Below are positions 1-22,157 of a stretch of 27,812 nucleotides of DNA, piece by piece. Where the stretch lies: IMG/VR virus record IMGVR_UViG_3300020419_000069, positions 1 through 27,812 of that record; one strand, given 5' to 3'. A model generated the notes under the pieces. It saw only the letters and a program-made list of their open reading frames with translations, did not search any database and was not told where the DNA came from. The stretch's first letter is position 1. Each line of letters begins with the position of its first letter. Source of the DNA: a virus. A program made the position numbers and the translations under genes.

Positions 1-201
1 TACCAGTTGTTTAACAAGGTCTTTTAATTCAGACACTTCTTCTTTTAGTTCTACTAATTCTTGTTCTTTTAACAAGTTTTTTCTTTTTATTTCTTTCTGT
101 CTTTTTATTTCAGATACATCTGAATTTAAAATTGCACCACTTTCCCTATCTCTTACAAGACTTGGATTACCTTCAACTTGTATATATCTATTTTCATCCA
201 T
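1..201 (-). CDS. Small conserved phage protein, N-terminal part only (runs off the left edge)
   Basis: The ATG at 201..199 shares one base with the TAA of the upstream 1714-residue gene (TAATG), so the two are translationally coupled. The 67 codons visible begin MDENRYIQVEGNPSLVRDRE and continue SGAILNSDVSE, followed by a Lys/Glu-rich heptad-like stretch (about residues 33-67) that looks like a coiled coil. From memory, the pattern VEGxxxLVRDxxSGAILN recurs in a small protein of unknown function in many T4-like marine phages. No enzymatic motif is seen. The stop codon lies outside the window, so length is unknown. Being last in the baseplate operon suggests a late structural or assembly role, but that is inference only. 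Confidence 0.75.
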   Translation of the reverse strand, partial: MDENRYIQVEGNPSLVRDRESGAILNSDVSEIKRQKEIKRKNLLKEQELVELKEEVSELKDLVKQLV

Positions 202-11133: not shown

Positions 11134-11724
11134 CTATTTTTCTTTAATCTCTACCAATTCATTTGCACTTTGTAAAACATTGTTATATACTGTTTCCACA
11201 TTCTTACTAAAGTTTGCATCAAAAGTTTCTCCAACAACAGGCATTTCTACACCAATTTGTGCAGTTAATGACCCATCTGGATTATAGGTATCATAATCTA
11301 ATATAAGTTTTTCGTAAGTTGTATAATCTTTCCAGTATTCTGCAATCTCAAATGTTGTTTCGAAATCAATAGTTCCATCTTGATTGATTACTTGGTAATA
11401 AATTAATTGTCCTTTGTTTTTCTTTTCACAATCTCCTGATAAAGTTTCTGTTGGGCCTGCACGATAAATACCTTCACTAACAATCAATCGAACATCATTA
11501 AATAATTCTATATTACCTTGAATTACTCTCATCATTTCTGCTTGTAAGTATAATTGTCTTGCGGTAGACAGTCGAGTTTCTTCATCACCCACAAAATCAA
11601 ATGGAGTTCTATCACCATATGCACCTAAAAACTTTGCAATGGTTATTCCAGGCCCTAATTTTGTTGCAGAACTTATTTGTCCCGCAAAGTTAGGATTAAA
11701 TACTGGGTCAACTAATATTATCAT
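11134..11724 (-). CDS. Conserved hypothetical protein between the gp5-type needle and gp25
   Basis: The 196-residue product starts MIILVDPVFNPNFAGQISSA and is predicted to be mixed alpha/beta, with an acidic central part (AEYWKDYTTYEKLILDYDTY). I do not recognise a family. It is not a PAAR-type spike tip: the Gly/Pro/His pattern of PAAR proteins is missing. It overlaps the needle gene by ATGA and ends directly at the late box of gp25, so it belongs to the hub/wedge operon and probably acts in hub or spike assembly. In marine T4-like phages a gene of unknown function often sits in this place. The last point is from memory. Confidence 0.55.
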   Translation of the reverse strand: MIILVDPVFNPNFAGQISSATKLGPGITIAKFLGAYGDRTPFDFVGDEETRLSTARQLYLQAEMMRVIQGNIELFNDVRLIVSEGIYRAGPTETLSGDCEKKNKGQLIYYQVINQDGTIDFETTFEIAEYWKDYTTYEKLILDYDTYNPDGSLTAQIGVEMPVVGETFDANFSKNVETVYNNVLQSANELVEIKEK

Positions 11725-13208
11725 TTTGGTGTAAACCTCTTTCCTCTATTTTCAATTGCATTACCTATTGGAATATATCCAAATCTAGATGTTGGTTCTT
11801 TACCAACAGTTCTACCAATTGCGGGTGGATTTGCAGTAAAAGATTTGTCTCCAACTCTTTCTTCACTCATAAGTTGTCCAAGTAAAGTGTCTCGATTACC
11901 TGAACTACGCATTGCAGAACGAATTTCTTGAGTACTTGGATGTTTGTTAAAGATACCTTTATAATCATTAGTTAGGTCAAGAATATCTTTTAACTTATCT
12001 CCTTCATCAATTACTACATCACGAATTGCAAATTCACCTTGATTTGCAAGTGCAGTCACTACTTCTGGTACTGGCCACTCTTCAAAAGTACCACTCCAAG
12101 GCGCACCAGATAAATCTTGTTGTTGATTAATAGTTTCGGGCGCACCACCAGTTGGTACACTTCCACCACTACTTGTTAAATTTTCTGCATAATTTTGTGA
12201 CTCAGTGACACCCGAAGTTTCTGCAAACTTAGACTTTTCAGCTTTCCATGCAAATCGAGAAAACATTGCGGATGTTGATTGTCCAAAAAACGAACCAAAG
12301 AAAGCTGCATCACTAGCATATGGTTTAGGGCCTGCATTACCTTGATATACCTTACCAGTAAAGTTAATTGATTTACCCCCAATATCACCCGCAGTACCAA
12401 GAACTGATAATTTTTCACTACCAGTTATGTTTGTTGCTTTTGATGTAGCTGCAATCGACTCTTTACCAGTTATTAATATACCCTTTTCTGAATTCATTTC
12501 GACTTCACCTTGTACCCAGTTTTTCTGCGTACCCTTGACGAATTGATTATTATCTGATAACATAATATCTGAGTGTTTTCCAATGGTCTTGGTAGATTTA
12601 GTTCCTTTAGTCACATATTCTGAATTGTTTGAAACAAAAGTACGATGGTTATCACGAATACCCATAATATGATTACCCGCAACATTTACATTATAATTAC
12701 CACCAACATCAACATTGTAGTCTCCAGTCACGGTTAAATTCATATTACCTTTATATACTAAATTACCCGCACCTTCAACAATAACTGTTTGGTCTCCACC
12801 AGTCACTTCAACCTTGTTATTTGTAGAAGAAACAACCACACTTCCATCTGCTCGCATTTCTACACCCGCACCAGTTCGATGTCTGATTAGTATTCTCTCT
12901 CCGCCTGGAGTATCATCATATTCAACGACATGTCCCGATATCGTTTCATCTACTTGGTTAAAAGGAAACTCCGAAGGTCTTTGGTCTTCTATATTTAAAG
13001 GTACGCCAATATCTCCACCCCCAGTGTAGAGTTTATTAATTTTTGTACCTCTTGCGGCTTTGTTTATACCAGAACCAAAGTTATAGTCTCTTTTCGGAAA
13101 CTCACCCGTGGGGTCTTGAAAACCATCTTCGGGTATACCAAGACTTTCTTCAACTCCTTCACCTAATTTTTGTGTTCTTAATTCAAAATTATCTTTTTTT
13201 GTTGTCAT
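11721..13208 (-). CDS. Tail needle / central spike protein with gp5-type C-terminal beta-helix
   Basis: The 495-residue product has SGHVVEYDDTPGGERILIRH and GAGVEMRADGSVVV at about residues 91-127, the typical lead-in to the gp5/VgrG needle. This is followed by short strand repeats to about residue 285, such as NLTVTGDYNVDVGGNYNVNV and AGNHIMGIRDNHRTFV, which fit the triple-stranded beta-helix of T4 gp5. The C-terminal third (about 290-495) has low-complexity Ser/Gly/Gln linkers and an extra helical part. T4 gp5 carries OB fold, lysozyme and needle in one chain. Here this protein has only the needle, while OB and cell-wall domains lie in the two preceding genes. Both ends overlap their neighbours by ATGA. 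Confidence 0.8.
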   Translation of the reverse strand: MTTKKDNFELRTQKLGEGVEESLGIPEDGFQDPTGEFPKRDYNFGSGINKAARGTKINKLYTGGGDIGVPLNIEDQRPSEFPFNQVDETISGHVVEYDDTPGGERILIRHRTGAGVEMRADGSVVVSSTNNKVEVTGGDQTVIVEGAGNLVYKGNMNLTVTGDYNVDVGGNYNVNVAGNHIMGIRDNHRTFVSNNSEYVTKGTKSTKTIGKHSDIMLSDNNQFVKGTQKNWVQGEVEMNSEKGILITGKESIAATSKATNITGSEKLSVLGTAGDIGGKSINFTGKVYQGNAGPKPYASDAAFFGSFFGQSTSAMFSRFAWKAEKSKFAETSGVTESQNYAENLTSSGGSVPTGGAPETINQQQDLSGAPWSGTFEEWPVPEVVTALANQGEFAIRDVVIDEGDKLKDILDLTNDYKGIFNKHPSTQEIRSAMRSSGNRDTLLGQLMSEERVGDKSFTANPPAIGRTVGKEPTSRFGYIPIGNAIENRGKRFTPK

Positions 13209-15136
13209 TTGTTCACCGATGTATCTGTTGGGTCTACTGGACTTTCTAAAAGTGGGTCAACAATTTTATTTGTTGATTTTCTAAATACTTTTTCAACATA
13301 GTCTTGCACATCAAAGTAAGGGTCTATTTCATCAACGTCCAAGTCGTTGTGACCAAAAACATTTCCGCCTGGATACTTACTATAAAATGCCTCTAAAAAC
13401 CTCTCTAAAGTCGTGTATTGTTCTCTAGTAAACGAAGATGCAGACCTATTCGCAAGTGGTTCAACTTGTCCAGTTGCGATATTAATACCACCAACTAATA
13501 CAATTCCAATTGAAAAATTGTTATGATTATTGACGGAAGTGTGGTCACCTATTCTGTCTGCTGGACGCCCTCGTTGTAATCTACCGTCTCTTCTTATTAC
13601 ATAATGATATCCAATACCGTCATGTCCTAATTTATTTTGCATATTATTTATTTCAATAGCACCGATATCTTTATCAGTTGTAGTTTCCGTTGCATGAATT
13701 ACAATTTCACTGATAGGTCTTGAAATTGCTTGCATTTCTGAATTAAGTTCTTCTACTGACGATACATAAGTAAACACATCAAGACTACTAGTTCTACCAG
13801 ACCATTTGGAAATTTCTTCTCCGATTGGTTTTGGGGGGTCATAAAATTCTGTATCTAATACTGTTTGACCCGCAATTGTTGGATTTAATTTTTTAATTTC
13901 ATCATCCGCTCTATCAATTACTCCAGTTGCGTTATCAATTTCATCACTTGAAATACCCTCTTCTTTTGCAACTCTTTCTACTTCTGATTTAAAATTTTCT
14001 GGATTAGTACCAACTGGTACATTTTCAACAACTCCTTTCATTTTTTCGGATATGTTTGCATTACCAGTTATTGACTTTATTGCTTTTGCGTCACCTAAAG
14101 GCGTATCTTCGGTAATATTTTCGGTAATTTCTTTTAATTTACCAGATGTAAATGCATTACCACTTGCCATACCAATAACTGTATTCTTGGTGTTTGAAGT
14201 AAGACCTTCGGTAATGTTTTGTAAATTACCCCCAAGACCAACATCTAGTTTACTTGTTAAATCTGCAGTAAATCCACTTGCACCTGATTTTAGTCTATCT
14301 ATTCCACTTTTTAAATCACCAAGTTTATCTAATTTATCCATGTTTGGAATGCTAGTTAGAGTAAGTTTTTTTGTATCTAATTTTGCAGAAAGTGCTTCAA
14401 TACCCGTAATATTTTTTACATTACCTAAATCATCTAATGGGTCGTCTATAGTTTTCAATGCGGGAACTCCTGAGATTGCACCCCCTAGTTTGTCTCCAAG
14501 ACCACCTATGTTTGGAATATCAAGATTAGGAACAACATCAGCAATTTCAGATAATTCACTTGCACTTAAAACTGAACTTAATCCCGCTTGCACTTCACTT
14601 CCTTTTCCGTTTGCAAGTGACTTTGCTTTATCTAATGCATCACTTATTCCTGATGGACTTCCAGACGCAATCATATTTAAAGGAGACTTTGGAAGTTCTA
14701 ATTTAGGTATCGGTAAACCAGTTATTGCACCAAGTAATGATGATAATGCTTGTGGTACTTCACCCCCAGTTTTTTCTGCACTTACAGTAAATCCTGCTGA
14801 GTCATATCCTGAGTCTGCACTTGTATAATTAAGTACAACATTTGATGTAGAATAAGGCAGTGTTTTACTTTTAGGGTCTATTTGTCCAGTAATACCAGCT
14901 GCGTCTGTTATAAGTGCAACACCTTCGCCTTGAATAACATCACCCGCAGAATTTTGAACTACTTCAAGAGACTCAATACCCGAAGTGGTTTTATCGTCTC
15001 GACCAATAATTGTGTCAAGTTTTGCTCTCCTTTCTTCTACCGTATTAACTTTAGTTTCAGTTTGATACTTTTGTTCCGCATCTTGACGGTTTAAAGATTT
15101 TAATCTTGCGTTAATCTGTCTTCTTAAATTAGCCAC
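13205..15136 (-). CDS. Virion-associated N-acetylmuramoyl-L-alanine amidase (hub)
   Basis: The start is GTG at 15136 (MANLRRQINARLKSLN), inside the end of the OB gene (8-nt overlap), with GGAG about 9 nt upstream. There is no nearby in-frame ATG. Residues 1 to about 450 are low-complexity Leu/Ser/Asp/Gly/Lys sequence, perhaps an extended or chaperone-like scaffold. Residues about 470-620 form an Amidase_2/T7-lysozyme-like domain: SEIVIHATETT with zinc ligand His481, GIGYHYVIRRDGRLQRGRP with the catalytic-type Tyr at 510 or 512, GDHTSVNNHNNFSIGIVLVGG, and FGHNDLDVDEIDPYF with His596 and Asp605 as the other ligands. Asp replaces the Cys of T7 lysozyme, as in AmiD-type enzymes. The likely role is cutting the stem-peptide to MurNAc bond during tail penetration, in place of the T4 gp5 lysozyme. 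Confidence 0.82.
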   Translation of the reverse strand: MANLRRQINARLKSLNRQDAEQKYQTETKVNTVEERRAKLDTIIGRDDKTTSGIESLEVVQNSAGDVIQGEGVALITDAAGITGQIDPKSKTLPYSTSNVVLNYTSADSGYDSAGFTVSAEKTGGEVPQALSSLLGAITGLPIPKLELPKSPLNMIASGSPSGISDALDKAKSLANGKGSEVQAGLSSVLSASELSEIADVVPNLDIPNIGGLGDKLGGAISGVPALKTIDDPLDDLGNVKNITGIEALSAKLDTKKLTLTSIPNMDKLDKLGDLKSGIDRLKSGASGFTADLTSKLDVGLGGNLQNITEGLTSNTKNTVIGMASGNAFTSGKLKEITENITEDTPLGDAKAIKSITGNANISEKMKGVVENVPVGTNPENFKSEVERVAKEEGISSDEIDNATGVIDRADDEIKKLNPTIAGQTVLDTEFYDPPKPIGEEISKWSGRTSSLDVFTYVSSVEELNSEMQAISRPISEIVIHATETTTDKDIGAIEINNMQNKLGHDGIGYHYVIRRDGRLQRGRPADRIGDHTSVNNHNNFSIGIVLVGGINIATGQVEPLANRSASSFTREQYTTLERFLEAFYSKYPGGNVFGHNDLDVDEIDPYFDVQDYVEKVFRKSTNKIVDPLLESPVDPTDTSVNK

Positions 15137-16010
15137 CGATACTCTCCAGTATTTCTAATGCTTTTTGTTCAACCTCTCCCGCAACACCCTTCTGGGTATT
15201 TTCTAAATAAAATTTAGTGACAATATCTGCAAGATTATTTATACCCTCTATATTATCTGATTGTAGTAATAATATATTTGCGTTTGCTTTTTTACCCCTT
15301 AATTCGTATGCAACAAACTCTAACTGTTTATCAAATTTATTAAAAGCAGGTGAAAAGTTAACTAAATCTACAAAACGACTACCCGTAAAACCACCAATAC
15401 CTTTTTTATCACCTTCGGTGTTAGTCACAAGTTTACTAGTAATAAATAAACCCGCAGTCAAAGTAATTGATTGTTTTTCGGTATAACCTAAATTCAAAAA
15501 GAATCGAACTGCAGTTTTTAGTCTTTGACTTCTAACTTTTTCAGATATTATTTTTCTATTGTTATCATTATCAATACCTATATCTTTAGGTTTTTTTAAT
15601 TTAACTCCAGAACTAAATAAATTTTCTGGTTTACTGTCGTCCCCGATATCTTCTTGAGTTTGTTTAGTTTGTGTTATTGTAGGTAATTCAATGTGTGGTA
15701 GAGAACCTAAAATAATTGGTGTTTGTGAGTGTCTACCGTCCATAAACATACCAAAGACTAATGAGTTTGGTTGTATTTTTGGTGATTTACCAATACCAGA
15801 TATACCCCCTTCGGTAGTTGGAAGAACACATTGCGCCCATGGTAAGTCTTGTTGTGGTAATAAGTATGTTTCATGACTATGTAAACCATGTACTCTTATT
15901 TTTACACGACCCTCAAAACCTAATGGTGGACTTGCATCTATTACAGTTGCAATAAACCAACGAATATTATCTCCATAATATTCATGCGATAGTGGTTTTA
16001 ATTCAATCAT
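15129..16010 (-). CDS. 5: Baseplate hub protein: gp5-type OB fold plus degenerate tail-lysozyme-like domain
   Basis: The 293-residue product has an N-terminal OB fold (about residues 15-105): IRWFIATVIDASPPLGFEGR, VKIRVHGLHS, LPWAQCVLPTTEGG and VFGMFMDGRHSQTPIILGSL, as in T4 gp5 and cyanophage hub proteins. Residues about 165-275 resemble the phage tail lysozyme family: FFLNLGYTEKQSITLTAGLF, GIGGFTGSRF, then FDKQLEFVAYELRG. The Glu expected in the family's N-L-x-x-E-S-G segment is not seen at the matching place (AGLFITSKLVTNT), so this domain may be inactive. The gene overlaps the gp27-like gene by ATGA and the amidase gene by 8 nt. In T4 the gp5 OB domain binds the gp27 trimer, so neighbours and partners match. 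The OB call is firm; the lysozyme-like call is weaker. Confidence 0.75.
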   Translation of the reverse strand: MIELKPLSHEYYGDNIRWFIATVIDASPPLGFEGRVKIRVHGLHSHETYLLPQQDLPWAQCVLPTTEGGISGIGKSPKIQPNSLVFGMFMDGRHSQTPIILGSLPHIELPTITQTKQTQEDIGDDSKPENLFSSGVKLKKPKDIGIDNDNNRKIISEKVRSQRLKTAVRFFLNLGYTEKQSITLTAGLFITSKLVTNTEGDKKGIGGFTGSRFVDLVNFSPAFNKFDKQLEFVAYELRGKKANANILLLQSDNIEGINNLADIVTKFYLENTQKGVAGEVEQKALEILESIGG

Positions 16011-19897: not shown

Positions 19898-20485
19898 ATG
19901 TCAAATATATTCCAGAAGTTAGAACTTGCAGCTTTTAGAAATCAAATTACTCCAAGAACTAAAGAGAGTAGAGAGTGGTTTATGAAAAAAGCAAAGACTA
20001 TGCGTGGTATTAATCGTGAAAACTTAATGCAAGAAGAACCACTAAGTAGAAGTGGTCGTAGAATAATTGGTTCAATGCAAATGTTTTATTATGACCCAAA
20101 ACATAAAGAGACTTTACCTTATTATGATAGATTTCCATTATCAATTATAATTAAACCCGCAAAAGGTGGGTTTCTTGGAATGAACCTACATTATTTACCA
20201 CCAATACTTCGTGCTCAATTTCTTGATGCACTTATGGATAATGTGACAAGTAAAAAGAGTGATGACGCAAAGTTCAATGTGACAACTAAATTACTTGCGG
20301 GAACATCAGAATTAGAATACTATAAACCTTGTATTAAACACTATTTGACCGCACATGTAAAGAGTAAGTTTGCAGAAGTAAAAGCACCCGAATGGGAGAT
20401 TGCAACCTTTTTACCAACCGCAATATTTGAAAAGGCATCAAAACAGAAAATATACTCAGACAGTAGGAAGAAAATAAATGGCTAG
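19898..20485 (+). CDS. Conserved T4-like phage protein of unknown function
   Basis: The 195-residue product starts MSNIFQKLELAAFRNQITPR and has RSGRRIIGSMQMFYYDPKHK, then LPYYDRFPLSIIIKPAKGGF and GMNLHYLPPILRAQFLDALM (about residues 50-115). I recall this as a strongly conserved protein of marine T4-like phages without a known role. The C-terminus is basic (SKQKIYSDSRKKING). There is no nuclease or zinc motif. It sits between the gp4-like head-completion gene and the gp54-like tube initiator, with an 8-nt overlap into the latter, suggesting a virion-assembly role at the head-tail or tube-baseplate stage. It has no normal ribosome site: the late box TATAAATA lies 5 nt before the ATG. Confidence 0.6.
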   Translation: MSNIFQKLELAAFRNQITPRTKESREWFMKKAKTMRGINRENLMQEEPLSRSGRRIIGSMQMFYYDPKHKETLPYYDRFPLSIIIKPAKGGFLGMNLHYLPPILRAQFLDALMDNVTSKKSDDAKFNVTTKLLAGTSELEYYKPCIKHYLTAHVKSKFAEVKAPEWEIATFLPTAIFEKASKQKIYSDSRKKING

Positions 20486-21221
20486 AATAGATGATTTAAA
20501 ATCAGAAATAACAAGTGGTGATGGTCTTGCACTTGCGAACCGATATCGAGTATTTTTACCACCAGTGGGTGGAGTATCCGCAAGGAGTCTAGATTTACTT
20601 TGCAAAAGTGTTTCTTTGCCTGGAAAACAAATAATGTCTGTAGACTATCAACTTGGTACGACAAATAGAAAAATTGCAAATGGAACTGCATTTGCAGATG
20701 TAAGTATGACCTTTATTGGATTAAATGATTTCAAAGCAAGAAAATATTTTGATGTCTGGCAGTCTGGTGCAGTAAATCCAGATAGTTTAGAAGTAGGATA
20801 TTATAAAGATTACACCAAACCAGTAGTGATACAACAGTTGGAAAAGAATGCGAAGTCTCCATTATTAGGGCCTAAAAAGTTATTTGATAATCCTTTACCC
20901 GATGCACTTGCAGAAAGATTACCAAATGTTGGCCCACTAGATTTACAGAATGGTACTTTTGATTTAGGTTTAGTTGGTCGACAAGACTTAACTACTTTAG
21001 CAGAAGGTGTGAACTATTCAGTAAGATTAAATGAAGCGTATCCGACTACATTAAATGAAATACCTTTGTCAAATGACCCAGATGGTTTAGTTGAAATAAC
21101 CGTGCAACTATCATACAAAGACTTTACTATCGTTGAAGGTAATATAAAAGATAAACTGTTAGATAAGGTTATTGAAAAAACTGGACTTTCAAAAATATTT
21201 CCAGACTCACTTAAAATTTGA
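20478..21221 (+). CDS. 54: Baseplate tail-tube initiator, gp54-like (gp19-type fold)
   Basis: The 247-residue product has the strand pattern of tail-tube proteins: NRYRVFLPPVGG, LLCKSVSLPGKQIMSVDYQL, FADVSMTFIGLNDFKARKYF, then YSVRLNEAYPTTLNEIPLSN and VEITVQLSYKDFTIVEG. T4 gp54 (about 320 residues) and gp48 are related to tube protein gp19 and start tube polymerisation on the baseplate. Since a gp48-like gene lies just across the divergent promoter, gp54 is the best assignment. A gp19 tube paralogue is the alternative, but the PLLGPKKLFDNPLPDALAER insert is unlike a plain tube protein. The ATG lies inside the end of the upstream gene (8-nt overlap), with AGGAAG upstream. Confidence 0.7.
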   Translation: MARIDDLKSEITSGDGLALANRYRVFLPPVGGVSARSLDLLCKSVSLPGKQIMSVDYQLGTTNRKIANGTAFADVSMTFIGLNDFKARKYFDVWQSGAVNPDSLEVGYYKDYTKPVVIQQLEKNAKSPLLGPKKLFDNPLPDALAERLPNVGPLDLQNGTFDLGLVGRQDLTTLAEGVNYSVRLNEAYPTTLNEIPLSNDPDGLVEITVQLSYKDFTIVEGNIKDKLLDKVIEKTGLSKIFPDSLKI

Positions 21222-21255: not shown

Positions 21256-21969
21256 ATGAATAATGTTTTACCAAAACTGAATGCGACCCCTTCGCATGAA
21301 ATGACGATACCGTCAACTCAAAAAGTAGTTAACTTTCGTCCATATCTTGTAAAAGAAGAAAAGGTACTTCTTCTTGCATTTGAATCTAAAGACCAAAAGA
21401 AGGCACTAAGTGCTATGATTGGTACTATTGATGCGTGTGTTTCAGATACTATAGATACTTCAAAACTTACTATGTTTGATGTTGAATATATGTTTACTCA
21501 AATAAGAAGTAAATCTGTAGGTGAGTCTACAAAAGTTATGATTAAATGTTCTGAATGTGGACACGAAAATGAAATAGGAATAGATTTATCTTCAGCAAAT
21601 GTCGATGTACCAGAAGTTGATAACATAATCAAAATATCAGATGAAATTACAGTTGAACTTAGATATCCTTCTTTTGAAGTTTTTATTGATAACTGGCAAG
21701 AAGAAATGAAAGAGTCTGAGTTAACTTATAAAATTGTTAATAAATGTATAAGTTCAGTCATGACCGAAGATACAAGAATAGATGCAGATGAAGTAAGTGA
21801 ACAAGAAATGAATTCGTTTATAGAGTCTATGAATTCTCAACAATTTAAAATGATAACTGATTATATTGCAACAATGCCAACATTAAAAAAAGATGTATCA
21901 TTTACATGTAGTTCTTGTTCTCATGACAATGAACAACAATTATCGGGGATATCGGATTTTTTCTCCTAA
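21256..21969 (+). CDS. 26: Baseplate hub / tail chaperone protein, gp26-like
   Basis: The 237-residue product fits the T4 gp26 hub family (T4_baseplate type, about 208 residues). It has HEMTIPSTQKVVNFRPYLVK, KEEKVLLLAFESKDQKKALS and KLTMFDVEYMFTQIRSKSVG in the N-terminal half. Four cysteines form two pairs, C98-x2-C101 (KCSECGHENE) and C218-x2-C221 (TCSSCSHDNE), which look like a zinc site. The ribosome site AGGAG is 7 nt before the ATG. The last codons, GAT TTT TTC TCC TAA, include the slippery heptamer T TTT TTC, from which a -1 shift leads into a 64-codon extension just before the tape measure gene. A tail-assembly chaperone role, analogous to lambda G/GT or P2 E/E', is inferred from that layout. 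Confidence 0.75.
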   Translation: MNNVLPKLNATPSHEMTIPSTQKVVNFRPYLVKEEKVLLLAFESKDQKKALSAMIGTIDACVSDTIDTSKLTMFDVEYMFTQIRSKSVGESTKVMIKCSECGHENEIGIDLSSANVDVPEVDNIIKISDEITVELRYPSFEVFIDNWQEEMKESELTYKIVNKCISSVMTEDTRIDADEVSEQEMNSFIESMNSQQFKMITDYIATMPTLKKDVSFTCSSCSHDNEQQLSGISDFFS

Positions 21970-22157
21970 ACCTTTCGCATGAAAATTTAGTTAACTATTA
22001 TCAAACTAATTTTGCAATGATGCAGAATTACAACTATAGTTTGACTGAATTAGAAAATATGATACCATGGGAAAGGGAAATATATGTTAATTTGTTGGTA
22101 GATTGGATAAAAAAACAAGAAGAACAACAAAAAACAAACGAGTCTAAGTATAAATAG
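21256..22157 (+). CDS. Predicted -1 frameshift fusion product of gp26 (about 300 residues)
   Basis: If ribosomes slip -1 on T TTT TTC (21957..21963), reading continues past the gp26 stop. It gives LLNLSHENLVNYYQTNF, then SLTELENMIPWEREIYVNLL and VDWIKKQEEQQ, ending at the TAG 22155..22157. The fused chain would have 236 gp26 residues plus 64 more. The extension could start alone only at the ATG pair 22017/22020, which has no ribosome site and would lose conserved-looking residues. The pattern L-x-x-M-x-P-W/F-E-x-E-I/L-Y is like the downstream part of tail-assembly chaperones in other phages. The tape measure gene follows 4 nt later. Frameshifting is inferred, not shown. Confidence 0.6.
21957..21990 (+). 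promoter_or_regulatory. Putative -1 ribosomal frameshift site: T TTT TTC heptamer plus hairpin
   Basis: The heptamer T-TTT-TTC lies in the gp26 frame at residues 235-236. Downstream, CTAAA (21966..21970) pairs with TTTAG (21986..21990), and TTTC (21973..21976) pairs with GAAA (21981..21984) around the loop GCAT, with a small internal loop. The gp26 stop codon is inside the stem. The stem is AT-rich, so its strength is uncertain. Confidence 0.55.
22149..22156 (+). promoter_or_regulatory. Late promoter box immediately before the tape measure gene
   Basis: The plus strand reads TATAAATA-GACGT-ATG. The box overlaps the TAG that ends the gp26 frameshift extension. T4 spacing puts +1 on the A of the tape measure ATG (22162), so this promoter would make a leaderless mRNA. 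Confidence 0.65.

Follow-up and report, generated by a model that had tools for sequence, protein, structure and literature searches.

Tail chaperone frameshifts were reportedly described by Xu, Hendrix and Duda in 2004 (cited in PMC9024508) for G/GT of phage lambda and E/E' of phage P2. For T4-like phages, Vladimirov, Gautam and Davidson (Virology 2022, 566:9-15, pmid 34826709) are said to have named genes 26 and 51 as the tail assembly chaperones (TACs), and to have noted that a number of T4-like groups use frameshifting while the T4 group has separate genes. The E. coli dnaX -1 signal combines a Shine-Dalgarno-like tract about 10 nt upstream, a slippery heptamer and a downstream stem. In two papers that cite this work, polyT slippery sequences are reported in T4-like TAC-N genes (PMC12846349), and some T4-like phages are described as having separate short and long genes (PMC10885494).

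Here, the gp26 homologue of a marine T4-like phage was analysed in the window, by which we mean the whole 27,812-nt stretch of viral DNA under study (IMG/VR record IMGVR_UViG_3300020419_000069). The 3' end of the gene reads TCG GGG ATA TCG GAT TTT TTC TCC TAA, with the stop codon at 21967-21969. Because it ends GAT TTT TTC TCC TAA, a T_TTT_TTC heptamer is in frame at 21957-21963, as a sequence-only reading of this DNA had noticed, and one codon separates the heptamer from the stop. We conclude that a -1 frameshift very likely joins gp26 to a gp51 extension, and that gp26 and gp26-51 represent TAC-N and TAC-NC for the adjacent tape measure protein. This rests on the slip site and how it is conserved, on the reading frame, on selection upstream of any start codon in the extension, on the T4 domain correspondence, on the gene order and on a fold match of the TAC type; from these we infer the slippage itself, its efficiency and the chaperone role.

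In the proposed mechanism, gp26 would be made mainly as the short protein, TAC-N. A minority of ribosomes would slip back by one base, both Phe tRNAs re-pairing on U_UUU_UUC, and would then bypass the gp26 stop and translate a further 64 codons to give a gp26-gp51 fusion of about 300 residues. TAC-N and TAC-NC, the latter with a helical hairpin at its end, would together chaperone the tape measure protein encoded next.

Gene context and predicted fold

Pfam and PHROG profile matches showed that the window holds a T4-like virion gene cluster, with mainly baseplate, tail cap and gp32 genes on the - strand (main features in Table 1). The gp26 product matched Pfam PF12322 (T4_baseplate, E = 1.2e-58) and PHROG 150 (baseplate hub, E = 2.9e-60), and a tblastn search with it gave matches in 740 phage records. 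The candidate tape measure gene begins 4 nt past the stop codon of the extension, and a long ORF, counted by its length and not its identity, begins within 20 nt after the extension in 134/145 relatives. Elsewhere in the cluster, the product of 20478-21221 (+) is tail tube-like, with matches to the tail tube families PHROG 45 and 3629, and the genes that relatives have at this position carry the annotation tail tube or tail tube initiator. On the - strand, 13205-15136 encodes a protein of 643 residues that ends in an amidase domain. The genes on either side of it, 11721-13208 and 15129-16010, match different parts of hub-lysozyme families.

Table 1. Features at and around the gp26-gp51 junction, in window coordinates
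Feature	Position	Strand	Evidence or remark
Head closure	19377	+	Profile match
DNA end protector	19898	+	Profile match
gp26 homologue, short form (TAC-N), 237 aa, C-terminal end SDFFS-stop	21256..21969	+	Pfam, PHROG, AlphaFold
GGGG, weak Shine-Dalgarno-like tract, ends 8 nt before heptamer	21945..21948	+	Sequence
Slippery heptamer T_TTT_TTC, gp26 frame	21957..21963	+	Sequence; T_TTT_TTN in 160/160 distinct relatives
-1-frame extension, gp51 / putative TAC-C domain, 64 codons + stop	21963..22157	+	PHROG, purifying selection, helical hairpin model
Hairpin of the sequence-only reading (CTAAA/TTTAG + TTTC/GAAA), 2 nt after heptamer	21966..21990	+	-2.6 kcal/mol
Alternative stem TTAGTT/AACTAA	21987..22009	+	Near family-wide stem-loop position; weak in window
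46-codon ATG-initiated ORF within extension	22017..22157	+	No ribosome site; kind of stretch often annotated gp51
Tape measure protein candidate, 519 aa	22162..23721	+	PHROG 58 tail length tape measure protein, E = 1.1e-7

The AlphaFold model of gp26 had a mean pLDDT of 94.5. When compared with solved structures, residues 1-98 gave a Z of 8.2 with 3fgx and 7.3 with the HK97 tail assembly chaperone 2ob9, the next value being 4.3. The match to 2ob9 was weak in Foldseek (E 0.28), and its Z is also below 8. Modelled alone with AlphaFold, the extension consists mainly of two long helices, the first of which starts at the slip site. Placed in order, the two models would look like TAC-N followed by a TAC-C hairpin, at Z values that are moderate. 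No relatives were found by a sequence search of the PDB. Both models matched the BFVD entry A0A8S0HX62 (182 aa), which is apparently a natural single-frame fusion of gp26 and the extension.

Together, the logic of T4 (see below), the fold match to the HK97 chaperone and the tape measure gene next door indicate that gp26 and gp26-51 are very probably TAC-N and TAC-NC. It could instead be argued that the fusion is made but serves classical T4 hub assembly, with gp51 as hub catalyst, and not tape measure chaperoning. gp26 and gp51 are classically named baseplate hub proteins, and the annotation of gp26 in Dickeya phage LIMEstone1 calls it a confirmed structural protein, a counterpoint to a pure chaperone. 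The fold and gene order, however, fit a tail assembly chaperone, and we consider an exclusive hub role unlikely. Since the T4 hub includes the tape measure protein gp29, the hub and chaperone roles may be one.

The -1-frame extension

Starting at 21963, the -1 frame runs through 64 codons before it meets a TAG stop at 22155-22157, just as had been read from the sequence alone. The extension matched PHROG 634 (baseplate hub assembly catalyst gp51) with E = 1.6e-25, and on this profile similarity it is assigned to the known gp51 domain. The C-terminal end of PHROG 150 also matched it (E = 4.4e-6), so some PHROG 150 members hold both parts in one protein. A tblastn search with the extension gave matches in 641 phage records, mostly from cyanophages, and a Pfam search of the extension gave chance-level matches only.

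In the window, none of the first 18 extension codons is ATG, GTG or TTG. These codons precede the first ATG of the frame at 22017 (the second is at 22020), which has no Shine-Dalgarno sequence, in agreement with the earlier claim that the extension has no start codon with a ribosome site. Among 145 representatives, 117 had no ATG, GTG or TTG in the extension frame until 15 nt past the gp26 stop, and in most the first ATG of the frame was found 50-56 nt past that stop. Residues soon after the slip are conserved (codon 6 H and codon 9 L, each 139/145; codon 17 F, 145/145). Stops within the first 17 extension codons occurred in 0/145 in the -1 frame, versus 145 and 142 in the other two frames. 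Compared with one of the three nearest relatives (L007), these 17 codons carry 4 synonymous and 2 nonsynonymous changes, an omega of 0.09 from few events, while omega was 0.32 for the whole extension and 0.23 for gp26. By these comparisons, the codons ahead of the first ATG are under purifying selection.

These data bear on a further explanation, in which gp51 would be a small gene of its own, a reading implied by most annotations in databases, with translation starting at the ATG of 22017 or 22020 or following gp26 by termination-reinitiation. Database records do annotate gp51 with a start of its own, in phiM9 a start overlaps the gp26 stop, and 19/145 relatives have an ATG that lies no more than 15 nt beyond the stop and could allow reinitiation. 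Against this, conserved codons under purifying selection lie before the first ATG, 117 representatives are without a nearby start, the annotated starts vary between phages, and phiM9 keeps the heptamer, as T_TTT_TTG, despite its overlapping start. We therefore regard a separate gene as very improbable.

Several public records give gp51 as a short stand-alone gene, with starts that differ between phages. The genomes of C48C1, HTVC008M and Mosig carry truncated gp51 genes with inconsistent starts, and in S-WAM1 the extension was left unannotated. This suggests that gp51 has been wrongly cut in many deposited marine T4-like genomes, the true product being probably a gp26 frameshift fusion. Re-annotation of the extension as a frameshift product seems due in all four of these genomes.

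Conservation of the slippery heptamer

Relatives were collected as 80 viral contigs via the gp26 profile and 80 via the extension profile, together with closer relatives and reference phages. In all 169 loci in which both parts were readable, representing 160 distinct junctions, the extension was in the -1 frame relative to gp26 and T_TTT_TTN was in register near the gp26 end. The heptamer and the open -1 frame thus persist in relatives, as the sequence-only reading would have it. Its proposal of a TAC pair made by a -1 shift, with the tape measure gene directly after it, is the best-supported reading and agrees with this constant frame and with the PHROG 58 match next door. The gp26-profile search made no selection for extension or heptamer, and both were present in 79/80 of the loci it seeded, the 80th contig stopping 30 nt after gp26. 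Within the genes of the window, in-frame T_TTT_TT occurs four times in 7,992 codons, the gp26 site included, so its presence at this place in all distinct junctions exceeds chance.

Across the 160 distinct junctions, the heptamer was TTTTTTC in 85, TTTTTTT in 57, TTTTTTA in 17 and TTTTTTG in one. The second codon therefore varied among TTC, TTT, TTA and TTG with six T's kept throughout, and protein constraint hardly accounts for this change from Phe to Leu. The codon preceding the heptamer was AGT, GAT, TCT, AAT or GCT, with T as third base in 160/160. With the encoded amino acids and the codon use of these genes taken as given, a preceding codon that always ends in T had a log10 probability of about -34 and a first Phe that is always TTT one of about -22, values that overstate the significance because the sequences are related and not independent. 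The same junction was found in phages of Pseudomonas (Milchi), Citrobacter (Ci1), Aeromonas (avDM12-TAAL), Stenotrophomonas (Mendera), Sinorhizobium (phiM9) and Vibrio (PG216). In a few relatives, such as L006 (Mosig) and L058, the heptamer is retained and the gp26 frame continues for 10-11 codons beyond it, giving a larger frame overlap.

Transcriptional slippage, with RNA polymerase adding one U on the T run and the fusion arising from altered mRNA, is less probable still than a separate gene, for although the run is 7-8 long in 57/160 relatives, it is exactly six T's, short for such slippage, in 103/160 (the window included), and it starts at a codon third position (offset 0) in 160/160, a register that is required by tRNA slippage alone. 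Two further candidates were rejected: readthrough of the gp26 stop, since the 0 frame reaches a TAG seven codons later, and additional slippage on the in-frame A run at 21885, since the -1 frame from there to the extension contains stops.

Putative stimulatory elements

Ribosomal -1 frameshifting at the heptamer may be aided by elements on both sides of it. At the position of the upstream tract, relatives mostly have GGAGG, GAGG, AAGG or AGGA, and the GGGG of the window is atypical. Before a near-invariant Gly about 10 nt upstream, GAG and GAA were used at 46:28, whereas the ratio was 833:2354 over the rest of these genes (p = 2e-10) and 18:55 where another Gly codon follows (p = 6e-6). Followed by the Gly codon, this GAG produces a GAGG Shine-Dalgarno-like element in the family. 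No comparable bias for AAG over AAA was found.

Downstream, the hairpin put forward in the sequence-only reading was present with its stems (CTAAA 21966-21970 with TTTAG 21986-21990; TTTC 21973-21976 with GAAA 21981-21984) and its 2-nt spacer, but it is weak and confined to near relatives. It was retained in the three nearest (L007-L009) and absent from L010 and C48C1 (L002), and was rejected as a family signal because it is lost beyond the nearest relatives. The alternative stem is mutually exclusive with the outer stem of this hairpin. Across the family, downstream folding energy beat synonymous draws of the same peptide at +8..+24 (mean z about -0.8 to -1.3), with hardly any excess at +0 or beyond +32. 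Enriched base pairs in relatives joined +21..29 with +36..44, that is, 21-44 nt downstream. These comparisons point to two family-wide signals, the Shine-Dalgarno-like GAGG on the upstream side and, at about +21..+44, a stem-loop. For the window itself, the weak downstream hairpin and a GGGG that is not the family's usual GAGG are counterpoints. A search of the window against Rfam gave no matches.

Divergent sites in Ackermannviridae

Loss of the heptamer with retention of the extension, named in the sequence-only reading as evidence against it, was seen in 0/169 loci of the window's group, but does occur in the distant Ackermannviridae. In L175, L178, L180, L182, L183, L185, L186 and L187 of this family, gp26 ends ATT TTC ATT TAA or CTT TT[TC] NNN TAA. 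The -1 frame of the extension remains open, and the six T's are replaced by sites that are either A_ATT_TTC-like or [AC]_CTT_TTY. Full re-pairing is possible there at the A-site codon only, and the P-site codon mismatches. In some of these phages a start codon overlaps the gp26 stop; in the Salmonella and Klebsiella Ackermannviridae loci, no nearby extension start codon was seen. Given the altered sites and some overlapping starts, the mechanism may differ in this family, and the junction is possibly a noncanonical frameshift site. T_TTT_TTT is retained in Acinetobacter phage SH-Ab 15599 (L184), which is also filed under Ackermannviridae.

More tentatively, marine T4-like gene 26 may carry a three-part dnaX-like signal (GAGG, U_UUU_UUN and a stem-loop at about +21..+44), with the wider family having moved among this signal, separate genes (T4) and noncanonical P-site-mismatch sites (Ackermannviridae). 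We hold this to be plausible, if somewhat short of an even chance. If true, it would provide a natural series for a frameshift kept, weakened or replaced.

Comparison with known systems

Like dnaX, the gp26 site has an upstream tract, a slippery heptamer and a downstream stem; it differs in that the stem of the gp26 family is further downstream and not uniform, and the upstream tract of the window is weak. As in lambda G/GT and P2 E/E', the probable -1 shift sits close to where the short gene ends, and the tape measure gene comes next. However, the lambda heptamer is G_GGA_AAG, in contrast to U_UUU_UUN in gp26, and gp26 is larger than the lambda and P2 proteins, with cysteine-rich zinc-ribbon-like parts after the TAC-like domain. 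With the T4-like TACs reportedly named by Vladimirov and colleagues, the locus shares the gene family, and its products would likewise be a short form and the short form plus a C-terminal domain. The general arrangement in T4-like phages is already published and the class itself is not new. As the class has been named and the polyT site appears in citing papers, the present locus is a strongly supported further member and not the discovery of a class.

In T4 itself, gp51 covers positions 13-280 of PHROG 150, the extension included, whereas gp26 covers only 14-235. By hhalign, the gp26 profile matched T4 gp26 (P = 8e-17) and the first part of T4 gp51 (P = 1e-6). The extension profile matched T4 gp51 residues 204-244 (P = 4e-5), and gave no match to T4 gp26. 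T4 gp26 thus corresponds to the short form, and T4 gp51 to the long form, gp26 plus extension as one gene. Unlike the arrangement described here, T4 genes 26 and 51 are separate and on opposite strands; gene 26 ends GAG TTC TTT GAG TTA CTA TAA, with no heptamer and a -1 frame that closes at once. By this correspondence, the two products that these phages appear to draw from a single gene have a gene each in T4. The independent support added here (invariant heptamer, selection, T4 domain fusion and fold) suggests that the long-puzzling gp26 and gp51 of T4 are its tail assembly chaperones.
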